Part shown: one piece after another, positions 7,331-14,452 of the stretch
Position numbering within the stretch: position 1 is the first letter of the stretch
Layout: each line of letters begins with the position of its first letter
IMG/VR virus record: IMGVR_UViG_3300048790_000171
Span: 1-25,164 of that record
DNA length: 25,164 nt
Reading direction: 5' to 3' (one strand)
Source of the DNA: a virus
Translations under genes and position numbers: made by a program
Notes under the pieces: model-generated
What the model was told of the DNA's origin: nothing
The model's input: the letters and a program-made list of their open reading frames with translations, nothing else
The model's database searches: none

Positions 7331-8065
7331 ATGCAAGCATTTTTAAATGATATTAAAGTAAAAGAAAAATATTTGAAGCGCGTTCGGATGCATCAGAAGG
7401 CTGATAATCTTGTCAAAGGCGCAACTGGGCATGATGGTAAGGGTTGTGCTGTATGGTGTACACTTGAAAAATATGAACACGCATCTTATGAAACTGAGCT
7501 TGGTATTCCTGAATGGCTTGCAAGAGTTGAAGACACTTTATTTGAAGGAATGTCTTTAAAGAAATCCAAGACTTGGCCCGAAGAATTTTTAAAAGCAATA
7601 CCAATTGGTGTTAATCTTGAACAGATAAAATCAAAATTTGCAATCGTAATTTTGAAACATTCACTTGTTTCAATGGCAAATACAAAGTTTGATGCTGATA
7701 AATTTCCAGATGTAAAGAAAGCATTAGAACAAAGTGCTTCCGCTGTTACACAAATGATCCAAGCCCATGACACCAATGATGCTGAATTATTAAGGTCAAC
7801 GTGGTCGGCGGCGAAGTCGGCGGCGAAGTCGGCGGAGTCGGCGGCGTGGTCGGCGGCGAAGTCGGCGGAGTCGGCGGCGGAGTCGGCGGCGTGGTCGGCG
7901 GCGAAGTCGGCGAAGTCGGCGGCGGAGTCGGCGGAGTCGGCGGCGTGGTCGGCGGCGGAGTCGGCGGCGGAGTCGGCGGCGTGGTCGGCGGCGTGGTCGG
8001 CGTGGTCGGCGGCTTATGACTATTATGCAGATGAGCTTATTAGACTCCTTAAGGATGTAAAATGA
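7331..8065 (+). CDS. Phage protein with C-terminal Ser-Ala-Ala repeat array
   Basis: A 244-residue protein. Residues 1-150 form a compact domain with blocks I recall from phage and bacterial hypothetical proteins: KEKYLKRVRMHQKAD, GKGCAVWCTLE, ELGIPEWLARVEDTLFEG and WPEEFLKAIP. Its biochemical role is not known to me. Residues 158-228 are 19 units of the form xSA or xSAA (x = W, K or E), followed by a 16-residue amphipathic end. The array averages about 3.7 residues per unit, close to a helical turn, so it probably forms a long helix with a Ser/Ala stripe. ATG 7331 has GGAAAGGA upstream; a TTG at 7316 in the same frame is less likely. Confidence 0.85.
   Translation: MQAFLNDIKVKEKYLKRVRMHQKADNLVKGATGHDGKGCAVWCTLEKYEHASYETELGIPEWLARVEDTLFEGMSLKKSKTWPEEFLKAIPIGVNLEQIKSKFAIVILKHSLVSMANTKFDADKFPDVKKALEQSASAVTQMIQAHDTNDAELLRSTWSAAKSAAKSAESAAWSAAKSAESAAESAAWSAAKSAKSAAESAESAAWSAAESAAESAAWSAAWSAWSAAYDYYADELIRLLKDVK
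7802..8014 (+). repeat. Codon-uniform TCGGCG repeat array
   Basis: Nineteen tandem units of TGG/AAG/GAG-TCG-GCG(-GCG), 9 or 12 bp each. Ser is always TCG and Ala always GCG in this stretch, very unlike the mixed codon use just outside. This indicates recent expansion by slippage or unequal recombination. The GC-rich array also creates spurious long open frames on both strands. Confidence 0.9.
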
Positions 8066-10623: not shown

Positions 10624-11280
10624 ATGTTGAATCAGGAAAAATGGGAAGAAGTTAAAAACAAAAAGCTACATACTGGATCGGGTAAAAACCTAGATACTGC
10701 GTGTATCATGCAAATGGTCTCCTATGTGGCAGGCGAAAAGTGGACCGATCACCCAGAATGTGCGTGCCCAATTTTAACGGAGTATGCAATCCGGTTGAAC
10801 GACCGATTCAATGACGAACACAGACAGAGACTTAAAGATTTTATTCCCCTTCTAGTTGGCACGAGAGCGGGCGATGAAATTAGAATAGCCCGCAAACGAT
10901 TGCTTTATTGGAGAAATGTTACAGCGACCTATCCTTTAATTTTGGATTTGATCAAGTTGCCAGAACTCGCAGAAAAATTAAGAACATTTCAAAATAATGT
11001 TGACGACATGAAGTCGGCGGCAAGTTTTTTAAACGAAAATAAAGAGGTTATTAAGAAGGCCACCTACGCCTACGCCAACATCTACGCCTACGCCTACGCC
11101 AACACCTACGCCTACGCCTACGCCGACGCCGACGCCTACGCCTACACCAACATCTACGCCTACGCCTACGCCAACACCTACGCCGACGCCGACGCCTACG
11201 CCTACGCCGACGCCTTGCGAGAAAAAATTGCAGATACCGCGATTGAAACATTGAAAATGTTAATCGCGATACAGACGTAA
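10624..11280 (+). CDS. Phage protein with C-terminal Tyr-Ala repeat array
   Basis: A 218-residue protein. Residues 25-100 resemble a domain common in actinobacterial and phage hypothetical proteins: [20 protein letters not shown], then RLND, then [17 protein letters not shown]. Its biochemical role is unknown to me. Residues 148-197 are a run of two-residue units (YA, with NI, NT and DA variants) built from TACGCC hexamers. The last 20 residues form an amphipathic helix. The layout (globular head, uniform repeat, short helix) mirrors the Ser-Ala-Ala repeat protein at 7331, though the heads are unrelated. GGAGGAG precedes the ATG. It sits between the SSB-type gene and the polymerase gene. Confidence 0.85.
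11065..11214 (+). repeat. Codon-uniform TACGCC hexamer array
   Basis: Fifty codons in which nearly every pair is TACGCC, AACATC, AACACC or GACGCC. A larger block ([12 protein letters not shown]...DADAYAY) occurs twice, the second copy lacking 12 bp. Tyr is always TAC and Ala always GCC here, unlike the flanks. This points to recent slippage expansion. The reverse strand reads as an arginine-rich artefact. Confidence 0.9.
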
Positions 11281-13489: not shown

Positions 13490-14452
13490 TCAGTAAGGCG
13501 ATGGGATAAACCTTGGGCCATACTCGTCTAAATAACCGAACCCACGTGTCCAATTGGTGATCCTTTGTGGGGTATAAGTTAAGCCCTTTGCTTCAGGATC
13601 CGCCACAAATCCGCCATTCAATTCCCAGCGAATACCATGACGATGGAGATTGCGATAGACCACCGATCCTAAATGGGTATGAAAATTTACGCTGTTCATT
13701 AAACTAAAATTCATATGATCACCTGGCTTTGATCTATGGCCATGAATGACTTGGATGTTACCAGGAAGAAATAGTTCTTCACGATAGCTTGCCATTGTAT
13801 GAACGCCTGGAAAGCTCATCATCTGAGTCAGCATCTGTGTAACCCAATCTTCAGCACTTGGATACACCTCTAAGATTCTTTTAAGTGGGCGAGCGTCGTG
13901 ATTACCCCACAATTGAGTGCAGATTGCATCAGGAGATGCATTCTTTAATTCAGCCCACATCTTTTCTGCATGGTGACGTGACATTTCGTGTTCTTCTTTT
14001 GGCATGAAGACGTTGTGAGAGCGTGGGAATTTGGTGTGTGAATACATATCATAAAGATCACCACCTTGAATGATTCGCTTTGGTTTATGGAGAGCGGCAA
14101 ATCTATAAGCTGCCTCTAAAGTTTTTTGATGTGCAAAGGGGTGATGAACGTCACCAATGAAAAGAGTTTTTTCCCAAGGCTCTTGCTTAGGTAATTCTTT
14201 TGCTTGGTACTGCTCAAGGTGGTGTTCAATTGAAGTGTTGAAAACTGAGTTGTCAATCTTTACATTTCTTTTTACGGGTGTGAGCCCTGCGGCTGACACC
14301 ATGGTGGCGTAATTTGCGAAATATTTATTGATTAACACTTTACCATTTCGAACTGTTTTGATAAATTCGTCGCGCAAAGGTGTGCGCCCAAGTTCGCTTG
14401 CTAATGCTTGAAGTGCTGAAACCATCTGATGCTGGTCTATTTTATCCCCCAC
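13490..14452 (-). CDS. Calcineurin-like metallophosphoesterase with N-terminal HNH-repeat-type domain
   Basis: A 320-residue two-domain protein. Residues about 8-58 (LASELGRTPLRDEF, KYFANYATMVSAAGLTP) match the homing-endonuclease-associated repeat (PF18780-like), usually a DNA-binding accessory to nucleases. Residues 95-300 form a calcineurin-type phosphoesterase with the metal motifs GDVHH (100-104), GGDLYD (130-135), GNHD (183-186) and HGH (237-239). The enzyme should hydrolyse phosphodiesters or phosphomonoesters using two metal ions; the substrate is unknown. GTG 14452 is the first start codon after an in-frame stop and has GGGGG upstream; ATG 14425 is an alternative. It is the last gene of the right-hand leftward block, converging with the polymerase gene. 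Confidence 0.88.
   Translation of the reverse strand: MGDKIDQHQMVSALQALASELGRTPLRDEFIKTVRNGKVLINKYFANYATMVSAAGLTPVKRNVKIDNSVFNTSIEHHLEQYQAKELPKQEPWEKTLFIGDVHHPFAHQKTLEAAYRFAALHKPKRIIQGGDLYDMYSHTKFPRSHNVFMPKEEHEMSRHHAEKMWAELKNASPDAICTQLWGNHDARPLKRILEVYPSAEDWVTQMLTQMMSFPGVHTMASYREELFLPGNIQVIHGHRSKPGDHMNFSLMNSVNFHTHLGSVVYRNLHRHGIRWELNGGFVADPEAKGLTYTPQRITNWTRGFGYLDEYGPRFIPSPY

Follow-up and report, generated by a model that had tools for sequence, protein, structure and literature searches.

The aaTRs of Borgs are tandem repeats located within open reading frames that are recent, have arisen independently, keep the reading frame, and are uniform at the nucleotide level, and homologues often repeat the same residues (PMC9879509). 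They are mostly intrinsically disordered, are encoded by A-rich DNA, and are found in many proteins (PMC9879509). These are the nearest described phenomenon to the array considered here, which is encoded by a phage gene, P0001, and by its relatives. In both cases recent, independently arisen in-frame repeats occur in the ORFs of mobile elements, and in the P0001 family the codons are uniform within an array but switch between phages. The P0001 family differs in that it is a single family with repeats at one homologous site, and these are alanine-rich, are predicted to be helical, and have a period of 3.6 residues. Disorder is typical of the Borg repeats but is not absolute; for the P0001 array that period and a helical model argue for helix, although array pLDDT is only 45–84.

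Coiled coils of the Alacoil type have a stable length and a heptad order. The antiparallel examples in Rop and in honeybee silk (PMC12284834) resemble the predicted P0001 array in that their helices are rich in Ala and have one face made up of small residues. An Alacoil-type pair consists of two antiparallel helices packed at short distance through small residues; for the window protein AlphaFold2 predicts two array helices with a break between them. Part of the model resembles Rop variants with low confidence, at a level expected of any helical hairpin. Unlike the Alacoil types, to which it has no sequence relation, the P0001 array is of variable length and has a 3.6-residue period. Single α-helix (ER/K) domains are helices in which Arg, Glu, and Lys abound (PMC5347031); with a composition of 33 Ala, 19 Ser, 7 Trp, 7 Glu, and 5 Lys in 71 residues, the array was rejected as a domain of this kind.

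The window, by which is meant the whole 25,164-nucleotide stretch of virus record IMGVR_UViG_3300048790_000171, contains the features collected in Table 1. As the initial annotation had it, the array parses completely into 19 units of the form xSA or xSAA, where x is W, K, or E. Their order is WSAA KSAA KSA ESAA WSAA KSA ESAA ESAA WSAA KSA KSAA ESA ESAA WSAA ESAA ESAA WSAA WSA WSAA, with 14 units of four residues and five of three, and the mean of 3.74 residues agrees with the figure of about 3.7 given there. A stripe of Ser and Ala with W, K, and E varying in position had also been proposed. The former stands; because every unit starts with x, the W/K/E residues likewise lie on one stripe, and it is only their identity that varies.

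Table 1. Features of the two array genes in the window.
Feature	Position	Strand	Basis and remarks
Array protein gene P0001, 244 aa	7331..8065	+	ATG at 7331, stop 8063-8065; ORF list, translation
Conserved all-helical N-terminal domain (N-domain), residues 1-125	7331..7705	+	Alignments A1-A3; AlphaFold2 prediction
Predicted helix 126-148, final one ahead of array	7706..7774	+	AlphaFold2; counterpart 122-145 in short-array relative L057
Alanine-rich array, residues 158-228	7802..8014	+	Helix predicted either side of low-confidence break at about 198-203
Conserved C-terminal helix YDYYADELIRLLKDVK, residues 229-244	8015..8062	+	Relatives with arrays of any length; AlphaFold2
Second array protein P0002	10624..11280	+	Array 11063-11215; same phage

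Codon usage within the array is almost completely uniform. All 19 Ser are encoded by TCG and 32 of the 33 Ala by GCG, while x is encoded solely by TGG, AAG, and GAG; the uniformity originally claimed for both Ser and Ala is therefore exact for Ser and broken for Ala by one residue, the last, which is GCT (8012–8014). That the codons are unlike those of the flanks was borne out by a codon count, which for residues 1–157 gave eight GCA, six GCT, one GCC, and no GCG among the Ala codons and no TCG among nine Ser. Across all coding regions of the window GCG accounts for 22% of Ala and TCG for 13% of Ser, values from which a naive probability of approximately 10^-36 is obtained for the uniformity of the array; this is a measure of recent duplication, not of function. 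The array has a GC content of 79%, as opposed to 35% for the remainder of the gene and 45% for the whole window, and TRF detects the array with periods of 12, 33, and 45 bp.

A search with the N-domain gave 12 close relatives, and a profile then recovered 353 in IMG/VR. Further relatives were found at 15 GTDB loci, mostly in MAGs but also in Lysobacter enzymogenes ATCC 29487, and in 11 Xanthomonas phage records at 28–32% identity. The family layout is an N-domain of the form GKGCAVGC ... FEG, followed by the array and the C-terminal helix, and the start of P0001 matches those of its relatives (alignment A1). Invariant or near-invariant positions of the N-domain are K11, H21, D25, G38-C39, C43, H50, P60, D68, F71, E72, and G93 (alignments A1–A3), of which H21, D25, G38-C39, C43, H50, D68, F71, and E72 mark P0001 as having the family domain (A1, A3). 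The Cys/His/Asp set among them looks like a putative metal site or active site.

The full P0001 protein matched no real family in Pfam, NCBIfam, or PADLOC, with no score above a curated Pfam or NCBIfam cut-off, and the N-domain likewise matched none in Pfam or PHROGs. Matches of the family to Pfam and NCBIfam were only scattered ones of low complexity (best 4e-4), with none to the window protein. A weak match to the profile of PHROG 3416 (3e-8), a family of unknown function whose 248-position profile has an array at a similar position, covers residues 123–225; the match is confined to the array region and the N-domains of 14 members gave none to phrog_3416, so that a relationship finds no support outside the low-complexity array. 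A profile search of the PDB, and Foldseek with both models described below, returned nothing above background, and neither a solved relative nor a partner or phenotype came to light. Rows from VIA-align (Z up to 7.6, mostly residues 119–202) would fit any long helical hairpin, and BFVD contained one unnamed phage relative, A0A6J5QCR4. No account of the array came up in literature searches, some of which used sequence words. As judged from these comparisons, this is an abundant phage protein family without a name in Pfam, NCBIfam, or PADLOC.

Every readable relative, amounting to nearly a hundred phage genes, has an alanine-rich array at the same site, between the conserved N-domain and a conserved C-terminal helix of the ADKLLELL type. 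Complete arrays range from 10 to 187 aa, with a median of 67. It is barely credible that the array is untranslated or artefactual, through a wrong gene call in an unused frame or through misassembly: other frames are open across the repeat too, one of them on the reverse strand, and contigs often end within such arrays, but in 75 of 77 complete genes the same frame is kept through the array into the hydrophobic C-terminal helix (L022 and L107, missed by the search pattern, carry this helix), and the same frame and helix are found in independently sequenced phage isolates. The two exceptions are L102, which has a run of N, and L068, which has a stop straight after an in-frame array. In the latter (L068:2501-3019) an in-frame TGA lies just past the array and ahead of an otherwise intact C-terminal helix, which may be a natural truncation or a sequencing error.

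Among 80 virus contigs (L018–L097), 16 end inside the gene past residue 110, compared with six in the 2.5 kb upstream and 14 in the 2 kb downstream. Short-read assembly seems to fail at the arrays, and array lengths in public data are biased as a result. Two “complete genome” records, those of XapPhi1 (L017, PP391659) and XapPhi2 (L116, PP391660), end inside the array in CTGTCT(CTTAT); because this resembles Nextera adapter sequence, the record ends look like assembly artefacts. In XapPhi1, 2, 4, and 6 the array gene is without an annotated feature.

The dominant Ala codon has a median share of 100% in the array, compared with 42% in the rest of the gene, and it is GCG in 35 arrays, GCT in 26, GCC in 18, and GCA in 11; for Ser, TCG, TCA, TCT, TCC, AGC, and AGT are all in use. 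On an N-domain tree in which many forks are unresolved, at least 26 switches of Ala codon were counted over 76 labelled rows (shuffled mean 37) and at least 14 switches of residue class over 77 rows (shuffled 24). Uniform 12-, 33-, and 45-bp repeats inside a replication region might be taken for a binding, origin, packaging, or recombination site whose translation is incidental. However, relatives use different Ala and Ser codons, and so different repeat DNA, while the protein pattern is kept, which argues against a conserved function at the DNA level and largely refutes this very improbable reading. The occurrence of the same protein pattern in different DNA from phage to phage argues instead for arrays that would be repeatedly homogenized by duplication under protein-level selection. 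The proposal that the array expanded recently and is nevertheless kept in frame was exposed to refutation by relatives that lack it or have it out of frame; checked on this point, they speak in its favor, through codon uniformity within each phage and the retention of frame noted above.

We hold it to be probable, though by no means assured, that the array is a selected, length-variable α-helical arm of a phage replication-region protein that is rebuilt by tandem duplication. Units would be gained and lost by slippage or unequal exchange, such that each phage has a codon-uniform array, while selection on the protein would purge proline, bulky residues out of phase, and any break of the frame, and would keep acidic and aromatic residues.

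The pace of this turnover is apparent from L080 and L082: their N-domains share 95% and their C termini 86% identity, but the arrays, of 63 and 96 aa, respectively, share only 43%. Array length and sequence thus change far faster than the flanks, and codon uniformity denotes recent expansion, as would be expected of a repeat that is simply tolerated: a permissive loop between the last two helices in which in-frame GC-rich repeats grow and collapse, the sole demand being that the fold is undisturbed. We regard this as unlikely, in the first place because no readable member is without an array.

The 3.6-residue period also speaks against mere tolerance. For the non-Ala/Ser residues of 43 arrays with W, E, and R, the period peak is at 3.60 residues (power 3.57, compared with a shuffle maximum of 1.30), and for those of 31 arrays with Y and D it is again at 3.60 (2.27 compared with 1.42). 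The peak of the W/E/R class is broad (3.55–3.80) and the Y/D class is more irregular. In runs of three- and four-residue units, the mean unit is 3.599 residues, and adjacent pairs of three-residue units are seen 23 times compared with 47 expected from shuffled order, a test that is weakened because tandem duplication alone orders units non-randomly, so that unit order within one array is not independent. As units within an array are not independent, agreement across arrays and between the two alphabets is the stronger evidence. The helix-matched spacing claimed in the initial annotation is supported by the 3.6-residue period in both classes and by the helices of the AlphaFold2 model.

Composition is similarly constrained, in a manner not expected of a tolerated repeat: Asp and Glu recur far more often than Thr and Val, the transition products, and Pro is nearly excluded. 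Of 68 arrays, 65 contain Asp/Glu two or more times, compared with 10 for Val, 10 for Gly, seven for Thr, and one for Pro, all of them residues that a single point change can make from Ala, and Pro makes up 0.26% of arrays compared with 3.7% outside them. The bulky/acidic class follows the Ala codon, in that GCG/GCA arrays are of the W/E/R class in 33 cases and of the Y/D class in three, whereas GCC/GCT arrays are Y/D in 28 and W/E/R in five, counts for which phage relatedness inflates the Fisher value. The third base at x is mostly the same as the array's own third base. Acidic and aromatic residues may thus be needed as such, with the third base of the array deciding which of them lie a step or two away.

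XapPhi5 and XapPhi6 date from 1987 and XapPhi3 and XapPhi4 from 2012 (PMC13168109). The arrays of the two pairs differ by four synonymous and no amino acid changes; synonymous-only change over 25 years again disfavors a tolerated repeat, although it comprises only four events. The array proteins of KPhi1 (Serbia) and phiXaf18 (Mexico) are identical, and that of BsXeu269p/3 differs from them by one in-frame GCG and two amino acid changes in the array.

Rapid in-frame turnover between close relatives such as L080 and L082 would also suit a hypervariable recognition arm, with an exposed stripe that binds a varying target of the host or of a rival phage and turnover serving as an arms-race device, as in other diversifying phage proteins. 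Some phages have two to four tandem gene copies with different arrays (four in L097; two each in L064, L066, and L084), which is consistent with such a role. We nevertheless consider it rather improbable, since the alphabet at x is narrow and tied to the codon context of the array (33:3 compared with 5:28) rather than freely diversified, and since the array proteins of KPhi1 and phiXaf18 are the same. The four array genes of L097 (L097:356-3094) directly succeed one another, no two of them with the same array, and the contig common to L069 and L080 carries tandem or nearby paralogues of the array gene.

A second array protein of the same phage, P0002, has an N-terminal domain and a conserved C terminus unrelated to those of P0001; the two have only their layout in common, and P0002 lies outside the P0001 family. 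Its N-terminal domain matches phrog_13065, and 128 relatives were found in IMG/VR, of which 80 were fetched. The C terminus of this family is mostly of the LKPTxxxLQxSAxxLxxRM type. Like the P0001 family, it combines a phage-encoded N-terminal domain, an alanine-rich array, and a conserved C-terminal segment; it differs in its period, which is 4.0 or 2, and in its codon uniformity, for which the median is 61% compared with 100%. Most arrays are like WDAARAAA and have a strict 4.0-residue period with no peak at 3.6, so alanine-rich phage arrays do not automatically have a 3.6-residue period, and helix matching is not needed by all of them. Three members (L150, L170, and L197) have other dipeptide arrays at the array site (LDLALARD, DIDIDIDIAI). 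A search for the P0002 family in 29 contigs of P0001 relatives, run without a positive control, gave no match.

The AlphaFold2 model of the window protein (62 input sequences, from an alignment without the annotated Xanthomonas phage rows) has a pTM of 0.75 and an all-helical core. In the N-domain pLDDT is mostly 88–97, residues at about 21–40 excepted, and the core is followed by helix 126–148 and ends in a confident last helix (pLDDT 94–97). The tail, for which a structure prediction had been proposed as a check, is modelled as helices 151–197 and 204–241 with a low-confidence break between them; the array is thus helical in the model, at low confidence, its pLDDT falling from 84 to 45 along its length. 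For L057, which has a 10-aa array (55 sequences; pTM 0.81), the same core and last helix (pLDDT 94–95) were obtained, joined by a short low-confidence link. Comparison of the two models suggests that the insertion point of the array lies between the penultimate and the last helix of a compact domain. It probably projects as a hairpin, and, as read from pLDDT and pTM, the C-terminal helix probably docks back onto the N-terminal domain. In the reading that we favor, the arm would run out and back from the compact all-helical domain, the Ala/Ser faces of the hairpin packing closely and a stripe of aromatic and charged residues being exposed opposite. The putative contact of this stripe would most likely be a partner protein within the phage replication complex or, alternatively, another copy of the protein itself.

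This bears on the functions originally suggested. Array length has no shared value, as a ruler would require, and the range of 10–187 aa shows that little of the array is strictly required in some phages. A decoy found no support, the evidence pointing neither way. A membrane surface is not supported, given the absence of any hydrophobic stretch and a charged or aromatic residue at every three to four positions, whereas partner binding by the array is possible. A membrane helix, a DNA site, and an antisense gene were all considered and rejected.

Near P0001 are genes for a primase-polymerase/VapE protein, an SNF2 helicase, a DUF2800 protein (PD-(D/E)XK nuclease superfamily), an Enc34-type ssDNA-binding protein, and a family A DNA polymerase. 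In relatives the neighbors include ERF recombinase, AAA_24 ATPase, UvrD-type and DEAD-type helicases, DNA methylase, and S24 repressors, although metabolic or structural genes, among others, occur as exceptions. In phiXaf18 and KPhi1, which are Xanthomonas phages of the Kantovirinae, the array gene directly follows the VapE-like gene. These neighborhoods support the placement of P0001 as a replication-region protein; of the earlier designation as a phage early protein, the location is sustained and “early” is an extrapolation from it. Homology searches with the window's own genes recovered few neighbors in relatives, because the neighbors differ among phages. Elsewhere in the window, the gene at 13490–14452 (− strand) carries a homing-endonuclease-associated repeat (HNH_repeat) at its N terminus and weakly matches a metallophosphatase domain. 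A Pfam scan of selected window ORFs detected no reverse transcriptase, the enzyme expected near the target of a diversity-generating retroelement, whose variation is adenine-templated.

Taken together, the array is real and no isolated curiosity; it is probably a helical arm, under selection and quickly rebuilt, in a phage protein family without a name. More tentatively, and less likely than not, this widespread undescribed family may use its continuously rebuilt arm as a diversifying interaction surface, which duplication would rewrite while selection would hold only the helical phase and the acidic/aromatic stripe, the third base of each expansion setting Glu/Trp/Arg or Asp/Tyr. Across nearly a hundred phage genes, one homologous site combines the turnover of in-frame repeats with a constraint on helix phase, and the choice of codon naturally marks the independent rebuilding of arrays. 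The interplay of repeat expansion with selection on the protein can be studied cleanly in this system, which also brings out an abundant, unnamed phage family that may act in early replication or in host takeover.
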